A stretch of 64,000 nt of DNA, taken from contig CM074185.1 in NCBI GenBank assembly GCA_037179385.1, positions 52,641,000 through 52,704,999 of the forward strand, given 5' to 3'. Below, one piece after another: positions 1,379-54,189 of the stretch. This DNA comes from Holothuria scabra. Its lineage: Eukaryota; Echinodermata; Holothuroidea; Aspidochirotida; Holothuriidae. Each line of letters starts with the position of its first letter. Position 1 is the first letter of the stretch. The position numbers and the translations under genes were made by a program. The notes beneath the pieces were generated by a model. It saw only the letters and a list, made by a program, of their open reading frames with translations. It was not told the DNA's origin and did not search any database.

Positions 1379-4300
1379 GTACAGTATCTATTGGTGTTTT
1401 CATTCATTTGCGTATTTAGAATCATTCTCATCATGCTCAAATCCCTTTACAGGTAATTTAAGGTTAATGACTTACAATGCATGCTGGGAATTTGATCTGT
1501 CACTTGTCATTTTTACTACCTTTTTGGGTGAATTCTTCTACTCTGTTTTCTCTTTTAAATTTTCCATTAAAAAAATATCACCTTAAGTTTGAGAAGTTTT
1601 TTGGACTATCTTTCTGTCAAATCTCATATTGTGGCTGCCATAGCCAGGGGAAACCCCTGCAGCTGTGCTTTGTTTCTAAATGCATCACACAAGCCTGTGA
1701 ACCTACTATTAATATGGGGTGTGTCAAACGAAGCATGGCTACAGCTGCTACAGCCTGGTAGAGGCAGCTGCAGCCCAATTGTTTTGACCTGAAGCCTTAC
1801 GCTAGGGTTATCTATGAAGTCAAGCACTCTGGCCTGGAATTTATATCACAAACAAACACTGCAACACGTAAATTTTTTATAGTTGAATTCAGCTGTGAAG
1901 TAAGGGTGAGAAATTACTGAGATCCATCAGCTTTTGTTTGAGTTACCAGTTGGATTACCAACACCACAGGTGACTGAAGACAAATCCAAACCCAATAATA
2001 AGCAGGTTTAGTTCAAGTTTTGGATTGAGTTCAACTATTCATGGTACAGGTAGTTGAAAGACATGATGGATCCAACAAATGACCAATGAATCTACACATC
2101 ACGTGGTAACCAGATTTGTGCATACTAATGCAACATTACCATTGATTCTACAGGACAAAGAGAATCCTTCCCATCATGCATTGTAATTCTTAAATTTGGA
2201 GCTTACTGTGACATTTCTCTGTCATTTTTCCCTCATGAACATCATGTCATAACATGTCATAACAAAACCTTTCATTTCGTAGGAGAGTAGATGTGATATT
2301 CTTCCAACTGTGATACAAGGACAACACCCAGAGTAGCAATGAATGGACTGAAAGGAAGTCATAGATATGAATATTCATATTTTGTAATAACTGTGATACA
2401 AGGGCAACACCCAGAGTAGTAATGAATGGACTGAAAGGAAGTCATAGATATGAATATTCATATTTTGTAATAACTGTGATACAAGGACAACACCCAGAGT
2501 AGCAGTGAATGGACTGAAAGGAAGTCATAGATATAAATATTCATATTTTGTAATAACTATGATACAAGGACAACACCCAGAGTAGCAATGAATGAACTGA
2601 AAGGAAGTCATAGATATGAATATTCATATTTTGTAACAACTGTGATACAAGAGCAACACCCAGAGTAGCAATGAATGGACTAAAAGGAAGTCATAGATAT
2701 GAATATTCATAACCTATTACACTCCTACTTACCTCCCCTATTACTACTATTGGACAGTCCATCTACTGGGAATGATCACTGACAATGAAGTCCTTGCTGG
2801 TGGCGCTATGCCACCAGCAAGGACAGCAAGGATGAAGTCGTAGATATGAATATTCATATTTTGTAATATACATTTGAAAGAACTAGTTTCTTATGAATTA
2901 TTGTGCTGGGTGGGGTATGTGCATTATTTACTAATCACATTTACAGTATGGAAGTTTTCGTAGGGATATGGTTTGCTTATCTTTTAATTTTTGAAAAAAA
3001 TAATTGATTCATCAGAATTATGTTTATAGTGTGTAATAAATGATTCTGTGTGCTAGGGATTTATTTTCAGGGTTCAGCTGTCAGAAAAGTTTGAATAATG
3101 CACAGGAAGTGACAAAAAGCTTTGTCAGCCAAACACAAAAGCATGCTTTAGCTTTGAATAGCTCCTTGTGTTAATTAAATTAAGCTGGAATGCTTGGCTT
3201 TATGTTATTTTGTAAGTGGAATTTTTAAGTTTTCACAAAATTAAAACACATGATTGCAAAAGAAGAGGTATCATTTGATGAAAAAGCCACTGAGAACATA
3301 ATCAATACTTAACAAAAAAAACTTGTGGAATGATGAAATATTTTTATAGTTGATGGTATTGACACCTCAAGTTATTACCGCCAGTTTTAGAAGAATTGAC
3401 TAAAATAAGTTTAGGCCAAAACAAAATTGGACTAAATTGAAATATTTAACTTTTGCATTGTTCACCAGGAATTTACAGTCAAGAAGTTGGCTTAATTTGT
3501 GACAAAAAATATTGAGGAATAATTAATTTTGGAAGTCCTCATTGAGCCATTTCATAAAACATTGAATTAAAGTCTATTCATCTGAATCAACTCTCTACTC
3601 TTGTTGTAGAGATTTTGTTACTTGCAGTTGATAGAGATTTATGGGAAAGGCAACCAGCTAACATAGTGTTATATCTTCTGATAATTTGTAACAATTATTT
3701 GAACAATTGTCCAAAAGGAATTAACCAAAGTCAATCATTATGGTCAAAGGTCATTGTAAATTTAACTGAATTCTTTATCTAAGAAGTTTCTTCAAATGTA
3801 TGCTTCATTAGACATGTAGTATTTAATTCCACATGACAACATCAAAATAATTTCAAACTTCGCTAGAAATAAATGATCAGTGAGATTTATTTGGTGTGTC
3901 AGCATTAAGCCATACTCCCATCTCAAAAGTAATATTTCAAGCTGAAAACATCTTGGATTTACTACAAAACATTTTCAGTCATTCTTCATACCAAATTGTT
4001 CAAATTGCTATTCATTGCTGCTAAATTTTGAGTCTTCAATCATTGTCAGTTCCAATCTTACAAATAAGGTGGTGAGATCTTCATATACATAAATCAAAAA
4101 TGGCTAGCTGTTTCATAATGCTTCTTCATCAGGATTGAGTCATTACTCACATGTACATTTTCTGCTGGAGCTGCCAGCCCAATTTTTATCCCCACAAGGT
4201 TATGGTAAATTAATTTTCCAGGAGTTTTTTTAAATTTGTACAAAATCGTGGTTAGGATTGTGCCAGCATGGATCGAAAAGCTACCATCAATTTGGGAAGC

Positions 4301-20126: not shown

Positions 20127-20449
20127 TATGAGGCGCCGTATGTGACAAAATTATGTGCCAAATATATTGATTATACTTCTAAATATATATAGGTTATACC
20201 CAGATATATATAATTTACTTTCAAACTTCATATAAATAGGTTTTGCATAATCTATATATAATAGTTATACACCATATATATCCTAACAAGCTATATATAT
20301 TTGTCACTGTAAACATTGTATTAATAGACAATGTCCTGTATAGTTTTCCGTAATTTTGTCAGTCTTTTTGTCACTCTTTTTGTCACATCGGGGAGAGTAG
20401 ATATATATAGATTACTAACACGCGAACAGCACGCGAGTAGGAGGTGCTT
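20127..20449 (+). repeat. Left terminal inverted repeat of the outer element (323 bp)
   Basis: Inverted match of 43655-43977. It is AT-rich, with several TATATATA blocks. GTGACAAAAT lies next to the outer tip and three inverted TTTTGTCA(C/G) copies lie near 20353-20387. These are candidate transposase binding sites. Confidence 0.9.
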
Positions 20450-22364
20450 AGTTACATACTGTGTATGAGGGAGGACCACCCAAAAGTGTTCCTTTCTACA
20501 TGGACACATTGAGACCTTGATAAGATTTATCACCACTAATTTTATCAGTTCCGTTGTCAGGTACATAAAAATACGGAGGTTGTATTATCTTTTACTACGA
20601 AACCAGTTCCCTTGATGTTAAGCTAGGAAGGAAAAGCGTTTGATATCTGAAACGGATAGTCTCTTTTGAAGAGGCAAATATCACCTTTTAGCTTTTTGGT
20701 ACAGTTGAGGGACAGCAGATACTTTCAGTACTTAATTAGGTTGTTGAACCTTTTACTAGACATGTTTCTGCTCTTGTTTTTAATTTTGAGCCTGGTAGGT
20801 AGTTGGACTTTTTAAGTTGTCCTGGTCTTAATCAAGCATAACCGATGTATTAGAGAGCCTCGATTAGAGCATAGAGGTATTTATCATTGTAAACTTCATT
20901 AAATGTTACCAAGTCACCATTGCTTGAATGAAAATAGGCGGTGGCATTATCTGCATAGGCGGCGGAAGCCGCCGGGGGCAGTGGAGGCTGGCCCCCAAAT
21001 ATTTTTTATGAGATTTGGGGGGGAATGCCCCCCCCCAAACTGAATGTCGCAAAAATAAAGTTTTCAAAAACGCTATAGATCTATCTGGGAATGAACACGT
21101 TTAAAGTTAAGAATCATTTTGTGTTAGCAAGATTTCGACCACATTCTCTGATGATTAAGTGAGTCTAATATGGTCCAATTTTGCACTTGCCGCATATACA
21201 GACCATCCAAAGGAAAGTACGTATATTTTGGGTCGTGTTTCATAAAAACACATGTACATCCGTCTCGTGTAGGTACCTGTACACCTACAGCTGACAAACT
21301 CTAACGTTAAGTTTCCAGATGTCGAAACGTAGCAATAGCTCAATTTTGGATTATATCGTTAAAAAGAAAGGTATAGATTTACATTTTTGCAAAGTTGTAG
21401 TAGGTGTGCAATAAAGTTTCCTTTTCTTAAGTTAAAAAATCTTAACGTTAGTCTGGACCTTACGTTAATAGGTCGAACTCCAGAGACGTACTGACCGGGG
21501 GCTGTGGGGTGTCACCCCTACCGCAATAATTTTGCTCTTCGGGAAATCAAGGTGGTCTGTCGGCAAATTGGCAAACCCGGGACACACGGGAAATGAATAT
21601 GCCGACTCAAAGAAAGAGATGCATACAGTACAACAAAGTAATTAAACAAATTTATGTTGCTTTTATTACATTTCGGCTATTCTTTGGCTCAATTATTACT
21701 TTTCAGAATGCAAAAGTTGCAAAGCTTCCGAGAGCTTGCCCCCCTCCCCCCCACTTGACCCCCACATTCACGATAACATGTAGGAGGGTTTACTTTCGAC
21801 CTTCAAACTGTTAAAACAAAACTTTTTGCAAGCTATCTATTACAAATTATCTTTCTTCTTCTCAAATCAGGGCCTTTTAAACATACTGAACGAGGGGCAT
21901 GTCACCAGTCCCCTTATTGGCCCCAATGACAAACATTTGCCCCAGTAATAATGTCCCTTTTAGGATTATTAGTTGCTTCCATTAAGTTCCCTAAAAAGCC
22001 TTATATGCCAGAGCTTCCGGGCCCTGTTGCGGGCCCCTGGACCCCACGCATATTGCCTCGGGATTTTAAAAAGAACTCCCTGTTGATAAAATGCCCCGAA
22101 ACACTTTGGATCTCTTAAAATGCCCTGTCTCAAATTATCAATCACATGTTCACATTTGAATAACTTCAAAATTTTGGCCTTGCCCCCTTAAATTATTGTT
22201 AAGTATGTTTCTCCTTAATCAAATTCCATAGTACTTCCCGATTCCATTCTCGTCCCTTAACTCACCCCACTCCTGAATAAAATTCATAGTTTAGAATTCT
22301 TAATTTTAATATGGTTTTCGACCATTTTGGAGCCTTTCGCTGAGCTTCCGGGTGCTTCGCCCCC
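20450..22364. other. Non-coding interior of outer element
   Basis: No gene seen. Contains GC-rich patches around 20935-21035 and 21720-21775 resembling decayed repeat ends. Nothing firm. Confidence 0.35.
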
Positions 22365-22670
22365 TTAAAGGGCCACACCTCTCACCCCAAACTACAGTTT
22401 TGGCACCCGGGTACCGAAATTCCCAATTGGCTCAGCTCTTTGAATGACAGCTAATTCAAACAATGCAGAGTGCCAAAGCTTATATTACACAGCACGTATG
22501 GTGCTGAGAGTGTTTTGATTATATAAATTGAGTTTTCTCTATACTCACCCTGAAGCAATAAACTGAGATTGTGTCTGGATGAGATTGAATTTCAGAAAAT
22601 TGTGGGAGGGGCTTCAGTAAGAAGGTTAGGAGAATTGGTACTGTTTGGAGTGAGAGAACAGAGCCTTTAA
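22365..22670 (-). mobile_element. TTAA-flanked MITE, copy 1
   Basis: TTAA at both edges (22365-22368 and 22667-22670). Its ends (AAAGGGCCACACCTCTCACC and the inverse of CTCTCACTCCAAACAG near 22640) are imperfect inverted repeats. It aligns in reverse to copies at 29883-30185 and 53615-53972. TTAA targets are used by piggyBac and Kolobok transposases. It is non-coding. Confidence 0.8.
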
Positions 22671-23261: not shown

Positions 23262-23395
23262 CCCTTCCTCTAAGCGGAGCGCCCTCATCTGTTGACGCGG
23301 AGCGTAAGGAAAATTTTGAAAAATCAGACTCTCAGACAGCCGAAAATGGCATTTCTCATGGCTTAAGCCCAGGTCACTCTACAGCAATATCGGAT
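23262..23395 (+). repeat. Dispersed copy of the ~175-bp GCGGAGCG repeat
   Basis: Same order of blocks as the array at 31.1-32.0 kb: AAGCGGAGCGCC, GACGCGGAGCGT, AAAATTTTGAAAAATC, CTCAGACAGCCGAAAATG, GCATTTCTCATGGCTTA. Inverted, more decayed copies lie at about 25694-25800 and 25925-26010. Confidence 0.75.
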
Positions 23396-24521: not shown

Positions 24522-26910
24522 CAGGGGTGGCGCCACGCCCTACCCCTCCCGTCGGGGACACTGGCCACCCCGTCGGGAAAGGTCGGCGATTTCGTCGGGG
24601 AGGCCAAAAAATTAAAAATAAAATAATAAAAAAACCCACAATGACTGAATTTACTGGATGCGCGACCTAGAACATATTTTTTTGTTTTGTAACGCTATTT
24701 TAATACATATCGGAATCGATTTTAAATCACTTCTTAACTCGGTTAAACCTCGTTCTATGTACCTTGTCCTATCTCTCCCCCCGTCGAGGAAGGACGGCAA
24801 TTTGGGGGGGGGGGCCTAAACATGAAAAACGTAAAAGACTGACGTAACTGGATGGATGACCATGATTTTTTTCTTTTTGAACTATTTTTTCTTTTGTAAC
24901 GTTATTTTAATGCATATCTGAATCGGTTTTAATCACCTCTTACTAGCTCTTCTATCCCTCATCCCATCTTCAATCCGTGCGCGCAAGGTCATGCCTCCGT
25001 CGGGGACGGGCTAACCACCCCCTGTTGTTGAGAAAATCCAATTTCGTCGGGGAACCTTCATCTAAAGACCCACGATAAAAGATGTGGGTCTGAAGTCACT
25101 CGGACGACCATCTTGATCTTGTTTTCTAGAAGACCATATTCTTCAAGGAAACTCACAATTCCGAATTCTCCTTACAAAAACGGACGAGAGGTACTTCATG
25201 TGCGTGCACTACCCAATGGTCTGCCATCTGGCCTGCCCGGACAGGAGAATTCTCACGAAGGTAATGAATATCGGCCATGCCGTTTCAGCTACACATAATG
25301 ATAAGCAGTGGTGTGAGAAAATCTCCCCATAAGTCTGACTGAGAATTTATTTGAAGGCACCTTGTAACGTGACATATTTTCAAATAAGTTGGGAGTAAAA
25401 GCATTCATAGTCTGGAGTTGAGGCAGTCACGTTAAAAATTTCATCTATTTAGTTGACCCTGCAATTGAATTCAACGAAGATTGTTAATACAATCAGAAAC
25501 ATTATAGTATGTTCTCAATGCCGTTGCATATTCCCCCCCCCCCCCAAAAAGAGACCAGAGCATTACTGTACATCTAATTGTAGCAGTACCTTTTATCTGG
25601 TACTTTTCTGATCATTATCGAGTTGGGGGTTCTTTCTCTATTAAAGTGAAACTTTCATTTTGAAGGAAAGTTCAAAATAACGACTACTTCATTTCTAGTT
25701 ACAAGTCTGGGAAATGCCATTCCGGCTATCTTAGGGATTAGATTTTTTTAAACAATTTTCTCCGCGCCATCTGATGGTGGCGCTCCGCATAGATAGTGTT
25801 TTAGTCGAACAGATAACTGAACAGAGCAATGCGTTTTTGTAAATTATTCTTCGTTTTGGGGCAGTATTATGAAGTGAAAATAATTTTATTGCGAAAGAAA
25901 TCTGAAAAAAGGGACTTCTTTAGTTCTAGTTACGAGCCCAGGAAATGCCATTTTCTGCTGTCCGGGTGTTCTCAATTTTTAAAATAATTCTGTGCGCTCG
26001 ACTTAGATAATCTTTCGGGCAGGATGACATTTTTCCGGACAAAAAAGAATTCTGTCCCCTCCCAAACTGACACGCTCCCGTACGCCTATGACAATAAGTA
26101 AAATATAAAACTTCAAATGTATGCGAGGCCAAATTTTTTCTTCGGGCGAATGCTCCAATATGGTCCGAGGGCCTAAATCTGCATGATGATATTCAGTAGC
26201 CTCAACAAAACTACAGATCACCCCTACTTGATTTTCCTCATGAGAACGTCAGATTCCTCCATAAAACCCCCAAACTGTCATAAAATTACAATTTTTCTCC
26301 AATATTAGCCTTAGATTGTTAAAAGTGACAAAATTTTCCAATTTCGATGGATACTCCGTACAATAAATAACCAAAGCCAACTCTGTTAATCACCCGGCAT
26401 ACTACCTAATTTTGCTCCTGAAAGACATATCACTTAATAAAAGAAACCAAACTTTTCATAATAACCTTGCCAGAAAACCAAATTTTCTTTTATTAAAGTC
26501 CAAAGTTTCTCCATTATAATAAGCTCTTAATTTTCAAAGATTCGTTTAAAAAAGGGAAAACTATCCGGGCAAACTTTTAGTCTCGTCTCGAAGCCTTAGT
26601 TCGTAGGTCTTGTGCGATTCAATGCGTAACCCCAAAAGAATTTCAGCTGTGGCCCATATAACGTTTTTGATTTTTCCCTTATGAAGGACGGGTTCTTCAA
26701 AAAACACCCAAAATTTTTTATAGTACCAACAAAAGCCAAATTTCTTTCAAAAATTTTAATTTTTACTTCAAATAAACTCCAGATTTTTAAGTATTTGTTT
26801 AAAAGAAAGCCCAAAATTCTGCCAAGTCACGTTCCACCGGGATATAACATCGCCTTTGTCAGGCCTTGAAATTCTGGCCCCCTGTCGGGCAAATCCTGGC
26901 GCCACCCCTG
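24522..26910. mobile_element. hAT-type element (2.39 kb), non-coding
   Basis: Ends are CAGGGGTGGCGCCA on the left and its exact inverse TGGCGCCACCCCTG on the right. The 8 flanking bases are ACCAGTAG (24514-24521) and ACCGGTAG (26911-26918), matching at 7 of 8. Ends of this kind with an 8-bp duplication are typical of hAT transposons. No transposase was recognised, so it is non-autonomous or decayed. It holds CGTCGGGGA-like repeats and inverted copies of the GCGGAGCG repeat. Confidence 0.75.
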
Positions 26911-29882: not shown

Positions 29883-30185
29883 TTAAAGGCCCAATTCGCT
29901 CACCCCAAACAGTACCAATTCTCCTAGCCTTCTTACTTAAGCCCCTCCCGCAATTGTTTGAAATTCATCCTCATTCAGACACAATCTCAGTTTATTGCTC
30001 CAGGGTGAGTATAAAAAAGGTCAATGTGTAAAATCAAAACACTTTCAGTACAGTCCATGCTGTGTAATATCAGCTTTGGTACCTGTATTGTTTGAATTAA
30101 CTGTCAATCTAAGAGTTCAGCCAATTGCGAATTTCAGTAACCCCCTATAAAACTGTAGTTTGGGGTGAGAGGATTGGCCCTTTAA
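29883..30185 (+). mobile_element. TTAA-flanked MITE, copy 2
   Basis: TTAA at 29883-29886 and 30182-30185. End blocks AAAGGCCCAATTCGCTCACC and GGTGAGAGGATTGGCCCTTT are near-perfect inverted repeats of about 28 bp. The body matches the copies at 22365-22670 (inverted) and 53615-53972. Confidence 0.85.
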
Positions 30186-31033: not shown

Positions 31034-31117
31034 CAGTGGCGTAGCTAGGATTTTTTCGAGGGGGCTATGGGGGGGGGGGGGCTGGGCACGTTTGTACAGG
31101 GCTGGAGTTAAATATCT

Positions 31118-32046
31118 AAGCTTAGCGCCACCACCAGTTGGCGCGGAGCGTACAAAGAAAATTTTGGATTTTTGGAACCTCCCAGATGGCTGGAAATGAC
31201 ATTTGCCAGGTTTAATTGTCCTTAAATCTGGTAAGAAAAATTTGTGATTTTTCTAAAATTCGAACACACTTTTGAGAAACTGATTAGCTCAGATCCTAGG
31301 ATTTCGAATCCGGAATTCTGCTGTATGTTGCAAGCAGCTGTTCCAGTGCACGCCTGAGCAAGGTATATCCATAGGCGTAGGGGAGCATTTCAGTTTGGAG
31401 GCAGAAGAATTTTGCCCGAAATATGTAATTCTGCCCACAAGACAGCCAAAGCGGAGCGCCACCAATGGTTGGCGCGGAGCTTTGAGAAAATTTGAAAATT
31501 CATACCTCTCAGACAGTCGAAAATGACATTTCCAAGGCTTATAAAGGGGATATAAGCAGTCGCTAGTTTAAGCTCCAATTGCAGATAAACGTTCACTCAC
31601 ACCTAAAATTCAGTCAGAAAGTCTAAGCGGAGCGCCACCATTAGTTGGTGCGAACAGTGCACAAAATTTTGAAATATCCGACCCCTCAGACAGTTGAAAA
31701 TGGCATTTCCCGGGATAATAGGGGAATCTAAGCAGTCGCTATTTTAAGTTTCCTCTTGCAAAAAGTGTTTACTTAAAACTTCAATTCTGCTATGAAGTGG
31801 TAAGTGGTGCATCACCATAAGTTGGGGCGAAACGTACAGAAAAGGTTGAAAAATCTGACCCTTCAGACAGTCAAAAATGTCATTTCTTATGTTTATAGAG
31901 GGTCTAAGCAGTCGCTATTTCGAGGTTCCGTTTTCAAAAAACTGTTCACTTGAAACAAAAATTCTGCAGGAAAGACTATCTACACGCAGCGCCACCACTG
32001 GTTGTCGCGGAGCGAACAGAAAATTTTGAAAAATCGGACCCCTGAG
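31118..32046 (+). repeat. Tandem array of ~175-bp GCGGAGCG units, interrupted by the Polinton
   Basis: Diverged units begin near 31118, 31452, 31628, 31810 and 31988. Each has GCGCCACCA..GTTGGCGCGGAGCGT, then AAAATTTTGAAAAATC, CCTCAGACAGTCGAAAATG, GACATTTCCCAGGCTTATA and TAAGCAGTCGCTATTT. The last unit stops at 32046, where the Polinton begins, and resumes at 41398. Confidence 0.85.
32041..32046. repeat. Target-site duplication CCTGAG, left
   Basis: Exact partner of CCTGAG at 41398-41403 on the other side of the Polinton. Confidence 0.9.
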
Positions 32047-33775
32047 AGTAGTATAGTATGCGGAAATCGCACCCTTTTGTGGAGGGTAAATAGTGGAGGG
32101 TAGAGGGTAAGAGAAAGAGCGCCACCAGCCGAAATGCAGGCTGGTGACGTCATGCTCCGTAGTGTAATCACAAAGGCTGTATGAGGGTTTCCTAGCTGCC
32201 TGGTGCCGTGCAAGTAAATACAAGTAATTGCCGGTCTCCTAATTGTTTCTCAACTGTGGTACAAAGCCTGCTTTACGTGAGGAGATTAAACTCTAGAGGA
32301 GGACTCAGAATAAACATGTTAATCTGAAGGCAACGTAGCCAACTTTTATATGTGTTGTTGACTTTTGGGTCATCGAGAACAGACGCCTATATCTGTAAAT
32401 TCGTTACCTAGGATTTCATTCCATCCATTCTTGTTGTAAAAAATGTACGGTAAAAGGTTCAGAGTAAATTTCGCGAAAAGGGGTAAATTTCGAAAATAAA
32501 ACAGTTTTCTTCATCACGATCTCATGAATGCTAATCTTTTTTTTTTTAATTCGAAAATATGGTCCGGGTCCGGGATTACGGTCTTAGCTAAATCAAAGCA
32601 GCCTTAATACGTGTAAAAAATGTTGACAAGAACATGATTTTACTTTTCTTTCTTTTTTATTTGTGCTCGTATATGTACATATAGAGGGCGAATCCTAATG
32701 CGTATTGTCACGTGTTTCACTGTTTTGCCCCCAAGGATCATGACGTCAGTGTGTCGTCAATGTACAAGGTCTATTGCCGCATTCCATTAAGATCGTGAAA
32801 TGGAGATCCAGATTTTAATTTAATTAACTGGTAACCTTATTCATACACTTACGCTCTTTCATCTCCTGCATTAGTGAAGAACATTAACAAAACGCCACTG
32901 TATATCCATAGACTAAGTATATCCGATGTCATAAATTGCCTTTATATATCTTTCTACCCTCACTAAAACGTGTTATATCTAAGCAAAAAAAAAAAAAAAA
33001 AAAACAAACAAACAAACAAACAAAAAAAACAAATCCATCGTATGTAACAATAAAAGTTTCACTAGTTTCAACTTGAACATATCTAAATTTGACGGTCTTG
33101 TATAATCAATACCTTATTTCTAAACATGCACTAATTGATAATGAGGTACACATTCTTTAAGTTGGTACCCGCCGTTAGTGTGAACGGGTATCTATGCCAT
33201 TATTATGCCCTCCTTACTTTGCGAACTATAATAAATCTGTTATGAAACATTGGGATTTGGGAAACATCGAAGTGTAAGTTGAACTGGGTTTCTGCCTGTA
33301 AGAGCTGTATCTTGTTTCACATTTCTCGCCTTTCGATAATTATATGACAAGAACAACCTACGAGACTGGTGTTTACCAGACCAAATCAACAGATTTTAAT
33401 TTTGCTGATAACTTTTTACCATGTTGCTTAGCTATATCATTTTACATAGTACATTTCTGTATTTAATGAGATTCAAGTTACCAAAAGGATTTAATTTGGT
33501 TTAAATATGAAACAAAGACCTAATTTACATTCAATAAAATCATTTTGCTGAAAATCAAACACCATTTTTTTTTCTCTTACTTTTATGTTTTCAGTTGAAT
33601 CAAATCACAGATGAAATAACAGAACCAAAGTATGTGTATATGATATAACAGAAAAAAAAAATAATGAGTGAGATAGTCTCTAGTATCAGTATACTTTTCT
33701 ACTGTATTGTAAATAGAACAACCTCAAGAGTATCATCCTTTGTCAGTGAATGCGTGAAAAAAGATAGAGAGATGG

Positions 33776-33848
33776 AGTTTACGACCCGTTTTCCAATCAA
33801 TTCGTCCAAGTCGAGCCGTTTATTTTCAGTTGCGGCCCACTAGCTTGC
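33776..33848 (-). repeat. SINE-like tail inside the Polinton left arm
   Basis: The inverse reads GGGCCGCAACTGAAAATAAA then CGGCTCGACTTGGACGAATT and ends GGTCGTAAACTCC-like. It parallels the host SINE tail (GAGCCACAACTGG..GGCTCGACTTGAACC..GGGCCGTAAAACTC). The mirror copy is at 39591-39666. Confidence 0.6.
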
Positions 33849-33939
33849 ATGAAAAAAAAAAGGTCATTATTATGATATTGCATCATGCTTGCTGTACACA
33901 TCCCCATAACACGTTTTTCAAGACAGTCAAAGATTTGAT

Positions 33940-35415
33940 TTAAATATCGAGGTAAGTGGTTTGCACAACATTTTCCAACACTTTCCTTTTGGGATAAAAA
34001 TAAGTAAACCCTGTCTTGACTTGTGAGTACGTAAACACGTGATTGTCCTTTACTCTGAAACCCTTGTTATTACCTGTTACCGCGGTCTTCGTATTCAGTA
34101 CCCCCAGATACACATCTTTTCCGATCTCATTGCGTTTCTTATTAATCCCCTTGCAACTAAATTTATCTTTTACCCCACCATAACAGTAATACATTTTACT
34201 ATTGAGGGCTACAATGCCCTCCCCTTCCCATTCTACTTTAAACAGCCCAGGAGTCCGTTTGTCGTATCTTTTATGTTCTTCCGTGTCTGCACGAGGAAAC
34301 CAATGATGTTTCTCCCTGTGATAAACCTCTCGCAATTCTGGCTTGACGAGGTCGTCTAGTTGGTCTGCGGCGATAGCAATGTAGGCCGAATCTGTATCCA
34401 TTTCGACGTATTCCCAGTACTGACGGTCAAAGTACTTGTCGAGAAAATCGTAATAGAACTCGAGCATTCTGAGTTTAGCATATTGATAGACAAAGAACCC
34501 AATCTGAATAGGTAAATCCATGGCAATAGACCGTTTTGCCGATTCCACTTCGTAACAACCTGTCGAAATTTCGTTTAAATCTCGAAATGTGGTTTCATTA
34601 ATCAGATTGGAAGCTTTGTCGTCTGGTACGATATGAATATTGCGATGCCCTTCTTTGTTAGTAATCGTTTTACCGTAAGACGAATTTCCGATGAGTTTCA
34701 TGGTATCGGCAATGATAGCTTTCGACGGATCTCGATCACCTTCTCGTCTCGCATCAGACACGGCATCACCAAACGTTTTAAAACACGCTTTGGGGGTAAA
34801 TTCAATCACTTGGTAGATTCGGGTAATTTTTAAGCCTTTGTTGAGGTACCACTTGACTAGGGGTGTTGCCAACAAAATTTTCTCTCCAAACATACTACCA
34901 ATTAGGCTTTTTCGGGGTGTCTTCATAATGTTTCCTTCCAACGCGAAATTCTTCATGTGTTCACCGATATCGTCAACCGAAATATCGGTATTTTTGAAGA
35001 TCGGACACATCTCCGCAAATGTAGGTTTTAGCTCGTCGGGTACGTGAATGTCACACTCGATAGCTCCAAAAATTTGGTCGTCTCGAATAGCTTGCACAAT
35101 CCTTTGCGAACTCAACGTACGAACTCTTTCGACTGGTAATCGTAAACTCTGCAGGAAGTGTTGAAGTTCTTGCGACATCTTCTGTTCTTGGTAAAATTCG
35201 CATTCTCGTATTTCCTTATAGTTGTACCCAAGCGACTTGATGTAGTCTCTGATGTTGTCGGTGTTCTCTCTTTTCGTGATGAACTTTTGCTGTTGTTCTA
35301 CGGTGTAACTCTTGTGTTGTGTGAGGTAACAATCGTGGCCGTGGACATAACATCCGTGAAACTGGTAAACCGTGTTCGTCCCTTGACAAAATCCATCCAC
35401 GGGAATTCGCCGCAA
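33940..35415 (-). pseudogene. Polinton DNA polymerase B, copy L, C-terminal (palm/thumb) part
   Basis: A 491-codon open frame on the minus strand, the downstream half of copy L. It holds motif B (KLIGNSSYG), motif C (MDTDSAYIA) and the downstream KMYYCYGG segment that fits the KxY motif, and ends ...TTYLDI. It is separated from the upstream half by a one-base frameshift in an A-rich run near 35425; copy R has one more base there. Known: protein-primed family B polymerases use motifs A and C for metal binding and B for dNTP binding. Alone, this part lacks motif A and the exonuclease domain, so it should be inactive. Confidence 0.9.
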
Positions 35416-36848
35416 TCCAACTCTTTTTCTTTGTCGTTCCCTTGATGTCGAATGAAAACATTATCTTTGTACGCCTTCCATTGCAACCACTCGAGACTGA
35501 CAGGGCGTTTCTTTTCTAATTTGAACCCGGTCGCCTCACGACGTCTCAAATAGGGACCGGTGGGCATGTTCTGCATGATCGCCCATAGATAGAGGGCATT
35601 CGCGTCAAATCCCACTATTTTCTGACACACATTATTTGTATTCCTAATCTTTGTTTTGCCTTTCTCTTGATAGCGATGAAAAATGATTGATGGGCCTCCG
35701 ACGAGGTTAGTTCTAAATGTGTAGTACAGATCCTGATTTTTATCGTCAAACAGAGCAAATGGTTCACCTTTGGCCTTCTGAAAGAGATACTTCATGGTGA
35801 GGCCAGGCACAGATATCCCATCTTTGAAGACATCAATGTATCTTTCTCGGTAAAATTGTGCCATTTTCTCTAGCGCCTCCAAAAACGGGACAACGTCACG
35901 GTTATTATACCAGGTGAGGAAGTCTTTCATCGTTTGCATGTTTTCTTGTTGCCACATCTTTTGACAATATACGTATTCGTCTGATGTGATGTTAGACTTT
36001 TTCAAGTCGCTATAAAATGCTTCGTGGGGTGGCAAGGATGTGTCATTAAGATTATCAAAGTTAATCCATTCGTACGGGAAAAAACCTTTGCTCTGAGAAC
36101 AATCGTAGGCCTTTAGAAAAGCATCGTAACTGAAACCAGGAGCGATGAAATTGACGACATCTAGGAATAATAAATGTTTCGTTTTCACGGCCATGTAGTT
36201 GTTACATCTCTTGACGATGAATCTAAGCGGATCGTTTTCGACCATCCACGGAAAAAGATGTTGCTTGACCGAATTGACGTCATATTTGCCAGAATTGAAA
36301 CCGAGCACGGGCAGTTCGTTTAAATAGGCCAACAGTTTGTCGTGTAATACTTGCAGGTAGTGTTGACGAGGCTTCGCATTTTTCTCCCGTCCTTCGCGTA
36401 ACTCCTCAAAAGCTTGTTTTTCGTCTGCAATGCGTGACTCTATTTCTCTGATGTAGGGGTCGTAGGTTTCGCGCAGGAGGGTCATACTTTTTTCTGATAT
36501 TTCTGTCAAGTAACAGAGCATGTTCTGCAGTAATTCATCAGAGTTTCCCTCCCAGATAAAGCACATTGGATTTTCATATCCAGGTACATTACTGCATACG
36601 CTTACACTCAGCGGTACGTGTAACGCTTCCAACGTCAGCTTGCTCGTGGCTTTTGATCCCTCTTTCACGTTCTCGAAACAACATTCAAAGTCATAGACCG
36701 CTCGATAAGGATAATACCGCAAGTCAGGAGATATGTAAATTCCTTCTTCTTCGAGTAATTCAAACACGGTCTTAGGATGCGAGTAAACACCACCGGGAAC
36801 GTTATGATGACACCATGTACCTGAATTTATGCAGTGACCATTTTTCAT
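35298..36848 (-). pseudogene. Polinton DNA polymerase B, copy L, exonuclease and motif A part
   Basis: A 516-codon open frame on the minus strand. Its first residues (to about 17) come from the unpaired palindrome centre read antisense, so it has no native N-terminus. Homology to copy R starts at PGGVYSHPKT. It contains ExoI (YDFECCFEN), ExoII (GFNSGKYD), ExoIII (YNNRD, Y-x3-D) and motif A (FDANALYLWA). It runs out of frame after GNDKEKE near 35425, between motifs A and B, and the tail after that is missense. Unlike copy R it keeps the 111-residue segment with ExoIII. The 3'-5' exonuclease region is complete, but the polymerase is split. Confidence 0.9.
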
Positions 36849-36974
36849 ACATTAGAGATGTCGATTTGTACACGAAATCGTATCAATGTAAAAAATGTCA
36901 AAAAATGGGAAGTGATCGCTGGAATATGCAAAGGCATGAAGCGACGTGTAACGGAGCTGGTGTCAAACATTCCT
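36800..36974. other. Unpaired centre of the palindrome (175 bp)
   Basis: Belongs only to the right-hand gene. On the plus strand it encodes LCSDHFSYIRDVDLYTKSYQ and a C..C...H...C zinc-finger-like segment. Just inside the arm ends it has TGACACCA (36808-36815) and its inverse TGGTGTCA (36957-36964), an 8-bp inverted match that could have primed fold-back. Confidence 0.85.
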
Positions 36975-39241
36975 TTCCCGGTGGTGTTTACTCGCATCCT
37001 AAGACCGTGTTTGAATTACTCGAAGAAGAAGGAATTTACATATCTCCTGACTTGCGGTATTATCCTTATCGAGCGGTCTATGACTTTGAATGTTGTTTCG
37101 AGAACGTGAAAGAGGGATCAAAAGCCACGAGCAAGCTGACGTTGGAAGCGTTACACGTACCGCTGAGTGTAAGCGTATGCAGTAATGTACCTGGATATGA
37201 AAATCCAATGTGCTTTATCTGGGAGGGAAACTCTGATGAATTACTGCAGAACATGCTCTGTTACTTGACAGAAATATCAGAAAAAAGTATGACCCTCCTG
37301 CGCGAAACCTACGACCCCTACATCAGAGAAATAGAGTCACGCATTGCAGACGAAAAACAAGCTTTTGAGGAGTTACGCGAAGGACGGGAGAAAAATGCGA
37401 AGCCTCGTCAACACTACCTGCAAGTATTACACGACAAACTGTTGGCCTATTTAAACGAACTGCCCGTGCTCGGTTTCAATTCTGGCAAATATGACGTCAA
37501 TTCGGTCAAGCAACATCTTTTTCCGTGGATGGTCGAAAACGATCCGCTTAGATTCATCGTCAAGAGATGTAACAACTACATGGCCGTGAAAACGAAACAT
37601 TTATTATTCCTAGATGTCGTCAATTTCATCGCTCCTGGCCTCACCATGAAGTATCTCTTTCAGAAGGCCAAAGGTGAACCATTTGCTCTGTTTGACGATA
37701 AAAATCAGGATCTGTACTACACATTTAGAACTAACCTCGTCGGAGGCCCATCAATCATTTTTCATCGCTATCAAGAGAAAGGCAAAACAAAGATTAGGAA
37801 TACAAATAATGTGTGTCAGAAAATAGTGGGATTTGACGCGAATGCCCTCTATCTATGGGCGATCATGCAGAACATGCCCACCGGTCCCTATTTGAGACGT
37901 CGTGAGGCGACCGGGTTCAAATTAGAAAAGAAACGCCCTGTCAGTCTCGAGTGGTTGCAATGGAAGGCGTACAAAGATAATGTTTTCATTCGACATCAAG
38001 GGAACGACAAAGAAAAACGAGTTGGATTGCGGCGAATTCCCGTGGATGGATTTTGTCAAGGGACGAACACGGTTTACCAGTTTCACGGATGTTATGTCCA
38101 CGGCCACGATTGTTACCTCACACAACACAAGAGTTACACCGTAGAACAACAGCAAAAGTTCATCACGAAAAGAGAGAACACCGACAACATCAGAGACTAC
38201 ATCAAGTCGCTTGGGTACAACTATAAGGAAATACGAGAATGCGAATTTTACCAAGAACAGAAGATGTCGCAAGAACTTCAACACTTCCTGCAGAGTTTAC
38301 GATTACCAGTCGAAAGAGTTCGTACGTTGAGTTCGCAAAGGATTGTGCAAGCTATTCGAGACGACCAAATTTTTGGAGCTATCGAGTGTGACATTCACGT
38401 ACCCGACGAGCTAAAACCTACATTTGCGGAGATGTGTCCGATCTTCAAAAATACCGATATTTCGGTTGACGATATCGGTGAACACATGAAGAATTTCGCG
38501 TTGGAAGGAAACATTATGAAGACACCCCGAAAAAGCCTAATTGGTAGTATGTTTGGAGAGAAAATTTTGTTGGCAACACCCCTAGTCAAGTGGTACCTCA
38601 ACAAAGGCTTAAAAATTACCCGAATCTACCAAGTGATTGAATTTACCCCCAAAGCGTGTTTTAAAACGTTTGGTGATGCCGTGTCTGATGCGAGACGAGA
38701 AGGTGATCGAGATCCGTCGAAAGCTATCATTGCCGATACCATGAAACTCATCGGAAATTCGTCTTACGGTAAAACGATTACTAACAAAGAAGGGCATCGC
38801 AATATTCATATCGTACCAGACGACAAAGCTTCCAATCTGATTAATGAAACCACATTTCGAGATTTAAACGAAATTTCGACAGGTTGTTACGAAGTGGAAT
38901 CGGCAAAACGGTCTATTGCCATGGATTTACCTATTCAGATTGGGTTCTTTGTCTATCAATATGCTAAACTCAGAATGCTCGAGTTCTATTACGATTTTCT
39001 CGACAAGTACTTTGACCGTCAGTACTGGGAATACGTCGAAATGGATACAGATTCGGCCTACATTGCTATCGCCGCAGACCAACTAGACGACCTCGTCAAG
39101 CCAGAATTGCGAGAGGTTTATCACAGGGAGAAACATCATTGGTTTCCTCGTGCAGACACGGAAGAACATAAAAGATACGACAAACGGACTCCTGGGCTGT
39201 TTAAAGTAGAATGGGAAGGAGGGCATTGTAGCCCTCAATAG
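36815..39241 (+). pseudogene. Polinton DNA polymerase B, copy R, internally deleted
   Basis: An 808-codon open frame. In order: zinc-finger-like YQCKKCQ..H...C (residues 24-45), ExoI DFE (90-92), ExoII N222..D227, motif A with D341, motif B KLIGNSSYG (644-652), motif C DTDS (744-747). Compared with copy L it lacks 111 residues after residue 274 (an in-frame 333-bp deletion between CCTGG microhomologies), which removes ExoIII. Near 39220 it loses two bases relative to copy L, so it ends early with GGHCSPQ, before the KxY region. The true N-terminus probably lay further upstream: the frame begins at the palindrome junction and the HFSY segment is usually internal in these proteins. The deletion and frameshift make a working enzyme unlikely. 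Confidence 0.9.
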
Positions 39242-39245
39242 TAAA

Positions 39246-39500
39246 ATGTATTACTGTTATGGTGGGGTAAAAGATAAATTTAGTTGCAAGGGGATTAATA
39301 AGAAACGCAATGAGATCGGAAAAGATGTGTATCTGGGGGTACTGAATACGAAGACCGCGGTAACAGGTAATAACAAGGGTTTCAGAGTAAAGGACAATCA
39401 CGTGTTTACGTACTCACAAGTCAAGACAGGGTTTACTTATTTTTATCCCAAAAGGAAAGTGTTGGAAAATGGTGTGCAAACCACTTACCTCGATATTTAA
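39246..39500 (+). pseudogene. Out-of-frame C-terminal end of polymerase copy R
   Basis: An 84-codon frame starting MYYCYGGVKDKFSCKGINKK and ending TTYLDI, identical except for one residue (NG versus NV) to the end of copy L. It is cut off from the body of copy R by the two-base loss near 39220. Confidence 0.85.
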
Positions 39501-39590
39501 ATCAAATCTTTGACTGTCTTGAAAAACGTGTTATGGGGATGTGTACAGCAAGCATGATGCAATATCATAATAATGACCTTTTTTTTTCAT

Positions 39591-39666
39591 GCAAGCTAGT
39601 GGGCCGCAACTGAAAATAAACGGCTCGACTTGGACGAATTGATTGGAAAACGGGTCGTTAACTCCA
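39591..39666 (+). repeat. SINE-like tail inside the Polinton right arm
   Basis: Mirror copy of 33776-33848: GGGCCGCAACTGAAAATAAA, CGGCTCGACTTGG, ending in ACGGGTCGTTAACTCC. Confidence 0.6.
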
Positions 39667-41397
39667 TCTCTCTATCTTTTTTCACGCATTCACTGACAAA
39701 GGATGATACTCTTGAGGTTGTTCTATTTACAATACAGTAGAAAAGTATACTGATACTAGAGACTATCTCACTCATTATTTTTTTTTTCTGTTATATCATA
39801 TACACATACTTTGGTTCTGTTATTTCATCTGTGATTTGATTCAACTGAAAACATAAAAGTAAGAGAAAAAAAAAATAGTGTTTGATTTTCAGCAAAATGA
39901 TTTTATTGAATGTAAATTAGGTCTTTGTTTCATATTTAAACCAAATTAAATCCTTTTGGTAACTTGAATCTCATTAAATACAGAAATGTACTATGTAAAA
40001 TGATATAGCTAAGCAACATGGTAAAAAGTTATCAGCAAAATTAAAATCTGTTGATTTGGTCTGGTAAACACCAGTCTCGTAGGTTGTTCTTGTCATATAA
40101 TTATCGAAAGGCGAGAAATGTGAAACAAGATACAGCTCTTACAGGCAGAAACCCAGTTCAACTTACACTTCGATGTTTCCCAAATCCCAATGTTTCATAA
40201 CAGATTTATTATAGTTCGCAAAGTAAGGAGGGCATAATAATGGCATAGATACCCGTTCACACTAACGGCGGGTACCAACTTAAAGAATGTGTACCTCATT
40301 ATCAATTAGTGCATGTTTAGAAATAAGGTATTGATTATACAAGACCGTCAAATTTAGATATGTTCAAGTTGAAACTAGTGAAACTTTTATTGTTACATAC
40401 GATGGATTTGTTTTTTTTGTTTGTTTGTTTGTTTGTTTGTTTTTTGTTTTTTTTTTTTTTTTTGCTTAGATATAACACGTTTTAGTGAGGGTAGAAAGAT
40501 ATATAAAGGCAATTTATGACATCGGATATACTTAGTCTATGGATATACAGTGGCGTTTTTGTTAATGTTCTTCACTAATGCAGGAGATGAAAGAGCGTAA
40601 GTGTATGAATAAGGTTACCAGTTAATTAAATTAAAATCTGGATCTCCATTTCACGATCTTAATGGAATGCGGCAATAGACCTTGTACATTGACGACACAC
40701 TGACGTCATGATCCTTGGGGGCAAAACAGTGAAACACGTGACAATACGCATTAGGATTCGCCCTCTATATGTACATATACGAGCACAAATAAAAAAGAAA
40801 GAAAAGTAAAATCATGTTCTTGTCAACATTTTTTACATGTATTAAGGCTACTTTGATTTAGCTAAGACCGTAATCCCGGACCCGGACCATATTTTCGAAT
40901 TAAAAAAGATTAGCATTCATGAGATCGTGATGAAGAAAACTGTTTTATTTTCGAAATTTACCCCTTTTCGCGAAATTTACTCTGAACCTTTTACCGTACA
41001 TTTTTTACAACAAGAAGGGATGGAATGAAATCCTAGGTAACGAATTTACAGATGTAGGCGTCTGTTCTCGATGACCCAAAAGTCAACAACACATATAAAA
41101 GTTGGCTACGTTGCCTTCAGATTAACATGTTTATTCTGAGTCCTCCTCTAGAGTTTAATCTCCTCACGTAAAGCAGGCTTTGTACCACAGTTGAGAAACA
41201 ATTAGGAGACCGGCAATTACTTGTATTTACTTGCACGGCACCAGGCAGCTAGGAAACCCTCATACAGCCTTTGTGATTACACTACGGAGCATGACGTCAC
41301 CAGCCTGCATTTCGGCTGGTGGCGCTCTTTCTCTTACCCTCTACCCTCCACTATTTACCCTCCACAAAAGGGTGCGATTTCCGCATACTATACTACT

Positions 41398-41403
41398 CCT
41401 GAG
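41398..41403. repeat. Target-site duplication CCTGAG, right
   Basis: Immediately outside the right tip of the Polinton. The text that follows (ACAGTCGAAACTGACATTTC) is the second half of the repeat unit cut at 32046. Confidence 0.9.
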
Positions 41404-41458
41404 ACAGTCGAAACTGACATTTCCCAGGCTTATAGGGGGTTCTAAGCAGTCGCTATTT
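41398..41458 (+). repeat. Second half of the interrupted GCGGAGCG unit
   Basis: Continues the unit broken at 32046: GAGACAGTCGAAACTGACAT, then CCCAGGCTTATAGGGG and TAAGCAGTCGCTATTTGG. Confidence 0.85.
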
Positions 41459-41834
41459 GGTAAAAAAAAACTACGAGATATATTAAATGTATCACTACCA
41501 ATCGATGAAATTGTCCCTCATGTTTTCGGGTGAAAACCATAAAACAGAACTGAAAACATGCTAAGGAATTTTACCCTATTGTGAATCTTGTCTAAATTCA
41601 ATATATTGATAAAATTGTGTGACTGCTCGAACTTCCCACTATATATGGTTTTACTTTTTGAAAAAATGAACATTACAAGGTGTGTTTAAATGAAGCAGAC
41701 TTTTTGGAAGCAGACTTATTGGAAGACATTCTCTCACTACATCATTAGAGTATCGAAAAACAAATAACCCGATTTTCATAACCATTGTCCATATTTGGCT
41801 CTAGAGCAGGATAGATGGCAAACTTTTGGGCACC

Positions 41835-43292: not shown

Positions 43293-43654
43293 TGTCTAAG
43301 GTTGCACTTTTCAGTCTGCTCTCCGATCTCTCGTGTTTGTGCTCCCCGCAGTACGCCAGTCGTAACCTGTACAATACAAGATTTATGGCATTTCTTACCC
43401 GCCTTTGAATAATACGTTCTCTTTGCTCGTCAGGTATTTTGTGCGATGCAGCCTTCAGATCCAGTGTGCAGTAATAACACAAAGACCAGTACAATTAACA
43501 CAAACGGGGACCTAATAAAAGAGTAGCCAGAGGGTCATCTTACATTCCTTACTCTGTTGCCTATAGAAATTGTCCTTGGCAATTCTCTGACAAGCCAAGT
43601 TACTGACAGCAATGGATGTGCCCTGAGCTCTGTCCGTTGTGATATATGTTCAAC

Positions 43655-43977
43655 AAGCACCTCCTACTCGCGCGCTGTTCGCATGTAAGTAATCTATATA
43701 TATCTACTCTCCCCGATGTGACAAAAAGAGTGACAAAAAGAGTGACAAAATTACGGAAAACTATACAGGACATTGTCTATTAATACAATGTTTACCGTGA
43801 CAAATATATATAGCTTGTTAGGATATATATGGTGTATGACTATTATATATAGATTATGCAAAACCTATTTATATGACGTTTGAGAGTAAATTATATATAT
43901 CTGAGTATAACCTATATATATTTAGAAGTATAATCAATATATTTGGTACATAATTTTGTCACATACGGCGCCTCATA
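43655..43977 (-). repeat. Right terminal inverted repeat of the outer element (323 bp)
   Basis: Inverse of 20127-20449. Here the inner GTGACAAAAAGA motif is a clean tandem (three GTGACAAAA copies at 12-bp spacing near 43718-43751). Confidence 0.9.
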
Positions 43978-48430: not shown

Positions 48431-48703
48431 TACACTCTAAAAAATATTTAAACGATTTTGTTTAAAAATTAGGATACTCACGAAAATGAGTATTTCTACT
48501 CGAAATAAGTGAGTACTTCAACTGAATTTGTGTAAAATTTTGCACAAATTCAGCAATTTGTGTAAAATTTTGCACAAATTCAGCAATTTGTGTAAAATTT
48601 TGCACAAATTCAGTTGAAGTACTCACTTATTTCGAGTAGAAATACTCATTTTCGTGAGTATCCTAATTTTTAAACAAAATCGTTTAAATATTTTTCGAGT
48701 GTA
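48431..48703. mobile_element. Palindromic MITE A, TA-flanked
   Basis: Near-perfect palindrome: TACACTCTAAAAAATATTTA at the left and its inverse at the right. The centre is three tandem copies of an inner hairpin word (AATTTGTGTAAAATTTTGCAC). TA at each edge fits a Tc1/mariner-type target. It sits between the two halves of the ACGTTCATGTAC array. Confidence 0.9.
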
Positions 48704-53614: not shown

Positions 53615-53972
53615 TTAAAGGCCCAGTTCTCTCACCCCAGACAGTACCAATTTCCCTTTCCTTCTTACTTAAAGGCCCAGTTCTCTAACCCCAAACAGTA
53701 CCAATTCTCCTTACATTCTTACTTAAGCCCCTCCCACAATTGTCTGAAATTCATCATCATCCAGGTGACAATCTCAGTTCATTGTTTCAAGGTGAGTATA
53801 GAAAAACTCAGTTATATAATCAAAACACTCTTAGTACCGTCCATGCTGTGTAATTTAAGCTTTGGTACTCTTCATTGTTTGAATTAGCTGTCAATCAAAG
53901 AGCTGAGCCAATTGAGTATTTTAGTACTCCGTACCAAAACTGTAGTTTGGTGTGAGAGGTTTGGTCCTTTAG
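53615..53972 (+). mobile_element. TTAA-type MITE, copy 3, with a duplicated left end
   Basis: Same family as 29883-30185. The left end occurs twice in tandem (AAAGGCCCAGTTCTCTCACC at 53618 and AAAGGCCCAGTTCTCTAACC at about 53672). The left TTAA is at 53615-53618. The right edge has decayed to TTTAGG. Confidence 0.8.
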
Positions 53973-54189
53973 GGTGCGCACAAAATATTTCCCGGTGGAC
54001 ATTGGTCAATAACGATCTTGATTATTGGACAAGATAATGAAATTGGATTATCAAGTATGTAGGCCAAAATGGCGCTTCGTGGGTCTTTACAGGAAAATAA
54101 ATTGCTATACCACATACGGCCTAGACGTATAAACACGGTTTACCAATGTAACACTGTTGCTGATGACATAACAACGGCCGTTTTCTTTT

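Follow-up and report, generated by a model that had tools for sequence, protein, structure and literature searches.

A Polinton insertion in the 64-kb stretch of Holothuria scabra DNA that we analysed (the window) consists of one near-complete inverted palindrome of 9,351 bp (positions 32047-41397). We conclude that the element is probably a non-autonomous fold-back Polinton, created by self-primed snap-back during end-to-end replication and then integrated. Polintons are thought to replicate by protein-primed synthesis from their ends.

The left arm (32047-36799, 4,753 bp, minus strand) is an inverted copy of the right arm (36975-41397, 4,423 bp, plus strand). They enclose a single-copy centre of 175 bp (36800-36974, plus strand) that consists of native polymerase coding sequence and would represent the loop of the fold-back. 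A single pair of exact and identical target-site duplications, CCTGAG, is located at the outer ends of the element (32041-32046 and 41398-41403). Both element ends start with AGTAGTATAGTATGCGGAAA, the left one at 32047-32066 (plus strand) with the (AGT)2 end motif described in PMC8097293, and the right one at 41378-41397 (minus strand), where the 20 bases read inwards equal the left terminus; the termini are AGTAGTATAG. A sequence-only reading of this DNA had claimed a palindrome at 32047-41397 with a 6-bp duplication, inverted arms of 4.75 and 4.42 kb and a 175-bp centre, and our measurements reproduced all of these values. The outermost ~1.9 kb (39500-41397, mirrored in the left arm at 32047-33942) contained no stop-free stretch of more than 67 codons, as determined for the right arm. 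No 12-base match to the terminal 60 bp was detected elsewhere in the window, searches of six open reading frames from the flanks against Pfam gave no useful match, and a search of Rfam yielded nothing useful. One flank open reading frame, used as a query for relatives, had a single 34% hit.

The arms differed by seven substitutions in 4,415 aligned columns (0.16%) and by seven small indels; alignment rows past 36799 fall in the centre and were excluded from both counts. Six of the seven indels were located in homopolymer or A-rich runs, as we read the alignment. In addition, 333 bp (about 35803-36135, minus strand) were present only in the left arm; the right arm has lost them in frame, between two CCAGG repeats. 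Near-identity over 4.4 kb in inverted orientation rules out a chance repeat.

When the host flanks were joined without the insertion, they aligned over the insertion point to seven other repeat places in the window. This alignment to neighbouring repeat units shows that the insertion is clean and its empty site intact, and makes a read-level fold-back artefact unlikely. Palindromes are hard to assemble, and most of the small indels, given their homopolymer or A-rich context, may be sequence errors. However, the palindrome ends at both termini, where it is followed by the target-site duplications and differing host flanks, and the arms are distinguished by the 333-bp deletion and the seven substitutions, so that we regard a palindromic chimera arising from the assembly or the library as very improbable. 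The single outer pair of duplications, together with the clean empty site, rules out the head-to-head insertion of two separate truncated elements. A nested insertion was likewise rejected, no internal terminus having been seen in the element sequence.

Both arms carry a Polinton-type family B DNA polymerase gene, truncated in either copy. The left gene (33943-36799, minus strand) is frame-shifted by an indel near 35.42 kb, with open frames at 35301-36851 and 33943-35460. The right gene (36797-39499, plus strand) has its 3' end facing the terminus and is open at 36776-39241; it is damaged by the in-frame 333-bp loss and by a frame-shifting indel near 39.22 kb. No frame break is common to the two copies, and the parent arm was therefore undamaged at these places when it was doubled. 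The N-terminal part is missing from both. Thus, the claim of two inverted polymerase genes holds for the presence of two inverted copies but not for their integrity, as each has lost its N-terminal part and their frames are broken differently. One of three open reading frame pieces matched DNA_pol_B_2 (E 5.2e-9), and the other two had no match above the curated cut-off. In alignments, the polymerase was 86-88% identical to three homologues of the sea cucumber Holothuria leucospilota, the source of its closest relatives among the matches listed. One weak endonuclease-like family of PHROGs was matched by two of the three polymerase pieces. A tblastn search of phage records and a search of one piece against PDB sequences gave nothing useful. 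In a prokaryote collection, one matching contig (L001) was found in the assembly of a tubeworm endosymbiont, where it is probably host contamination.

The residues that precede the turn in the homologues and are absent from the element number 504 (P0002), 359 (P0003) and 308 (P0122). In Polinton polymerases, the N-terminal part comprises priming-protein and protease-like domains (PMC11071308), and if this domain identity is adopted, these are the domains missing from both copies. The element would consequently have depended on helpers from birth.

The 6-bp target-site duplication, the terminal inverted repeats with the (AGT)2//(ACT)2 motif and the family B polymerase are hallmarks of Polintons. 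Intact vertebrate Polintons (Mavericks) share the (AGT)2//(ACT)2 ends, the 6-bp duplication and a protein-primed-type family B polymerase (PMC8097293). In contrast to the length of 12.7-24.6 kb given there for these elements, the present one measures 9,351 bp and carries two inverted, truncated polymerases facing outwards to the terminus. No genes for a retrovirus-like integrase, ATPase, protease or capsid were found among its stop-free stretches; those of at least 100 aa were polymerase, polymerase antisense or crossed the element ends. The lack of these four genes identifies the element as a derivative and not an autonomous Polinton.

Homology to known polymerases continued beyond the right arm across the centre and ended at the turn, at position 36797. 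The matches to four homologues (P0002, P0003, P0004 and P0122) start exactly there, and those to P0001, P0009 and P0018 start 3, 6 and 18 nt inside the turn, P0018 being a predicted protein that itself begins at that point. None of the seven reaches beyond the turn. Since homology along the right arm and centre reaches only to this point, we conclude that the centre is ordinary polymerase gene and that inverted arms surround a short, native single-copy loop, as in a fold-back. A query of 60 residues from the start of the left open reading frame, which spans the junction, had P0122 as its sole protein match. Opposite the junction, P0122 is native polymerase sequence, and this protein search therefore revealed no second palindromic copy. 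Scans of IMG/VR, run with two alignments of the polymerase and also with the 27 terminal bases, detected neither the parent nor a second palindromic copy.

At the turn, the sequence can fold into a hairpin of 15 pairs, in which 36797-36803 pairs with 36966-36972 and 36808-36815 with 36958-36965, leaving a 4-nt bulge. Its left half thus occupies 36797-36815, and its right half (36958-36972) runs into a repeat, TTCC (36970-36973) and TTCCC (36975-36979). For a strand that has grown from the right end, this hairpin, which is a new observation of the present analysis, positions the 3' end at most 5 nt from the copy start. The copy start is off the hairpin's own register, which requires the assumption of a 5-nt slip; such a slip into the register of the palindrome would be permitted by the TTCC/TTCCC repeat. 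The bases 36797-36799 can be assigned to either the arm or the native loop, and microhomology at the join accordingly amounts to 0-3 nt. Three of the 15 pairs rest on these bases, and a conservative test without them retained 11 pairs. A join at a simple 3-nt or 8-bp microhomology was considered and, after folding, replaced by the hairpin with the 5-nt slip.

The minimum free energy of the hairpin was -25 kcal/mol, and 2 of 200 shuffled sequences were equally stable. With flanks of 20, 25 and 30 nt, flanking-strand pairing (centre bases only) was equalled at 1, 6 and 7 of 2,495 control positions. Comparable 3'-end pairing occurred in 3 of 247 control windows and an equally stable overall fold in 12 of 247; the odds from all of these comparisons are rough, as the several tests, whose control positions overlap, were applied to a hairpin already spotted by inspection.

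We infer the following order of events. A full-length parent would be replicated by strand displacement, primed by a protein at the terminus that lies past the 3' end of its polymerase gene. After about 4.6 kb, within this gene, the growing strand would detach, and its 3' end would snap back via the native hairpin (~15 pairs), slipping 5 nt between the TTCC repeats. Copying itself to its own 5' end, the strand would yield a hairpin-closed molecule, and priming at the single terminus would copy through the turn to give a linear palindrome of ~9 kb with two identical ends. An integrase supplied in trans by another copy would then insert the palindrome with a 6-bp duplication. Subsequently, the arms would diverge by 0.16%, and one of them would lose 333 bp at some stage.

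The turn hairpin would serve equally well for a fold-back in the chromosome after integration. In that case a break inside a normal Polinton, followed by 3' snap-back and outward copying through the right arm, would be completed by recombination of the end of the new copy with the original left end, restoring the left flank. Snap-back at short inverted homology following a break is documented in human chromosomal inverted duplications, where 13 of 21 sequenced junctions show 2-8 bp of inverted microhomology (PMC3907307). As in our element, these duplications combine an inverted copy, a single-copy spacer and short inverted homology at the turn, but they are of megabase size and lack element ends and target-site duplications, and their spacers are longer (766-70,466 bp, median 3,428 bp, compared with 175 bp here). 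This route would also need two separate switches, the second placed exactly in the terminal repeat. Identical duplications and arms only 0.16% apart fit an insertion and a doubling of similar age, which is not decisive. Taken together, we consider a chromosomal origin unlikely.

Less probable still is an origin by deletion, in which long terminal inverted repeats (~4.4 kb) reaching into the polymerase gene are a natural feature of the parent family and this copy has lost only the unique middle. The terminal repeats of intact vertebrate Mavericks span 46-1,447 bp (mean 402 bp; PMC8097293). Moreover, the deletion would have had to rejoin by coincidence no more than 175 bp from the repeat boundary, beside a hairpin that accounts for the turn already.

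Snap-back before integration, as an account of an integrated fold-back genome in which one end was kept twice and the rest lost, thus remains the best explanation, although a chromosomal fold-back yields the same product. The core of this proposal, made previously from the sequence alone, gains support from the native centre, the unusually well placed native hairpin at the turn and the clean insertion site.

Related products are known from other systems. Adenovirus incomplete-particle or defective DNA with duplicated inverted ends was reportedly described by Daniell (1976) and by Daniell and Mullenbach (1978). It is said to share with our element a protein-primed linear DNA in which one end is present twice in inverted orientation; unlike the Polinton, which is integrated with a target-site duplication, it is free DNA. 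For the yeast linear killer plasmid pGKL1, Kikuchi et al. (1985) are said to have obtained derivatives in hairpin and palindromic form, likewise reportedly fold-backs of a protein-primed linear replicon with two identical ends, but of a cytoplasmic plasmid that is not integrated and belongs to another replicon family. Foldback of Drosophila and TU of sea urchin are foldback-type transposons in which long inverted repeats form most of the element. They differ from the present element in their transposase families and in the lack of a Polinton polymerase, a distinction drawn from their description and not from sequence comparison.

The replication of animal Polintons has largely been deduced from the polymerase and from the repeats at their ends. 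The element described here has a single junction, a snap-back within the polymerase gene, and both its termini are exact, which is the product expected of terminus-to-terminus replication. A search of the non-subscription literature for palindromic Polintons or Mavericks identified no report among the papers listed, as judged by title or abstract opening. Such palindromes would be fossils of replication, and other genomes can be screened for them. It is conceivable, albeit doubtful at present, that snap-back recurs in Polintons and makes small palindromic, helper-dependent derivatives with two working ends that spread in trans, and that transcription across the palindrome generates double-stranded polymerase RNA that could set off the silencing of the parent family. 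If so, palindromic Polinton derivatives would be the DNA counterpart of copy-back defective genomes.

The sequence-only reading had described two inverted arms around a short centre, with matching ends and a 6-bp duplication, and this structure was borne out by alignment of the arms and inspection of the ends and flanks. The element occupies 9,351 bp (32047-41397) and is bordered on both sides by the target-site duplication CCTGAG. Its centre (36800-36974) lies between a left arm (32047-36799) and a right arm (36975-41397) that repeat each other in inverted orientation; both termini, read inwards, carry AGTAGTATAGTATGCGGAAA. Excluding the alignment rows past 36799, which belong to the centre, the arms differed by 7 substitutions in 4,415 aligned columns and by 7 small indels, and 333 bp flanked by CCAGG repeats were missing from the right arm. 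Substitutions were found in 1 of 2,524 coding columns and 6 of 1,891 terminal columns, a weak contrast (Fisher p = 0.047).

We joined the host flanks with one copy of CCTGAG, and the resulting sequence aligned over the insertion point to seven further sites in the window at which the local repeat family occurs (72-79% identity), including 31553-31744, 31727-31920 and 31427-31568, with small gaps elsewhere in the alignments. The element is a real, clean insertion. A fold-back artefact at the read level is unlikely, because it would have mirrored the flank too, yet the symmetry ends at both element termini and the host flanks are unmirrored. The host sequence (31100-32046 and 41398-41460) is a degenerate tandem repeat with a unit of ~176 bp, and related units lie at 23269-23358 and 25700-25801.

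Other repeats were also found in the window. A 273-bp near-perfect palindrome at 48431-48703 (94% self-inverse), inside which a GTGTAAAATTTTGCACAAATTCAG-like unit recurs, is probably a small palindromic non-autonomous transposon. An AT-rich inverted pair of ~330 bp (20127-20458 and 43645-43977; 96-97% identity) contains short repeats of the GTGACAAAAAGA type. A dispersed family of ~310 bp (22358-22670, 29883-30185 and 53669-53978) shows 85-87% identity, and a tandem array at 2306-2711 has a period of ~83 bp and copies that are 95-96% identical.

The element is Polinton-derived. Its open stretch 36776-39241 had 1,893 homologues at E ≤ 0.001 among 5,141 candidates; among the best 120 of these, the top three were from Holothuria leucospilota (86-88% identity in alignment). 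These polymerase relatives suggest a sea-cucumber host, to which an ORF in the flank added no evidence. The ends and target duplication agree with those of vertebrate Mavericks (PMC8097293). No other Polinton genes were found in the element and intact Polintons are longer, indicating a derivative rather than an autonomous member. The polymerase points towards the terminus, whereas the modules of most vertebrate Mavericks point inward, so that the layout of the parent cannot be assumed; in the cane toad Maverick the modules are divergently oriented (PMC8097293). A Polinton-type polymerase (42% identical) is also encoded at 2737-3435 of a contig (L001) in the assembly of a bacterium that lives as an endosymbiont in the tubeworm Escarpia laminata; this contig is probably animal contamination.

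In the alignments, the reading frame of the right polymerase copy stays open from the right arm across the centre to codon 36797-36799, and this stretch includes the conserved ERYDDTMYLN segment and the cysteine/histidine motif. Alignments of four homologous proteins (P0002, P0003, P0004 and P0122) start exactly at 36797, and those of P0001, P0009 and P0018 start 3, 6 and 18 nt inside it, respectively. Homology past 36797 was found for none of these seven, and there the polymerase frame runs into the inverted copy. Judged by these alignments, the centre is native polymerase gene sequence. P0122, P0003 and P0002 have 308 to 504 extra residues upstream of the turn at 36797. Given that the N-terminal part of Polinton polymerases contains a priming protein and a protease-like domain (PMC11071308), both copies would lack this part.

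We folded the strand that would grow from the right terminus, taken as the complement of 36990 back to 36797, and also computed pair probabilities. A stem of eight pairs (36808-36815 with 36958-36965) is followed by a 4-nt bulge and then by a seven-pair stem between 36797-36803 and 36966-36972, which has one G-T pair and takes in the 3' end. The energy was -25 kcal/mol, a stability reached by 2 of 200 shuffles. Three pairs rest on 36797-36799, bases that could be either native or copied; the centre-only pairing without them has 11 pairs. With flanks of 20, 25 and 30 nt, its strength was matched at 1, 6 and 7 of 2,495 control gene positions, at 1, 6 and 19 of 4,393 whole-arm positions, and in 22, 49 and 99 of 19,763 randomly placed loops with lengths of 80-400 nt. 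Contiguous stems of at least 8 near the axis occurred at 13 of 4,423 arm and 9 of 2,526 coding positions, the observed place included. Overall stability was equalled in 12 of 247 folded control windows and such 3'-end pairing in 3, suggesting that what is exceptional is where the stem lies, not how stable the fold is in total. Depending on the measure, the odds range from ~1 in 80 to 1 in 4,400, and are rough because the inverted match was spotted by eye before testing and control positions overlap. The copy starts 5 nt off the hairpin register; an assumed slip between TTCC (36970-36973) and TTCCC (36975-36979) would account for this offset.

Primed at the right end, a growing strand would extend through the polymerase gene, snap back at the hairpin and copy itself as far as its own 5' end. 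A second replication round would open the hairpin into a linear palindrome, which an integrase from another copy could insert. Adenovirus and a yeast plasmid offer precedents. Replication that finishes at the terminus explains why there is only one junction and why the symmetry goes no further than the element ends. The main rival is a fold-back within the chromosome, closed via recombination between the element's own ends, which requires two switches. In PMC3907307, 13 of 21 chromosomal fold-back junctions carry inverted microhomology of 2-8 bp, similar in kind, but the spacers there measure at least 766 bp, compared with the 175-bp centre here. As for replication, a transposon-derived Polinton-type polymerase of Entamoeba displaces strands (PMC3511435), and a proposed role of the repeated end motif is to allow jumping-back during protein priming (PMC8097293). 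Most likely, the element arose by self-primed snap-back during replication, followed by integration.
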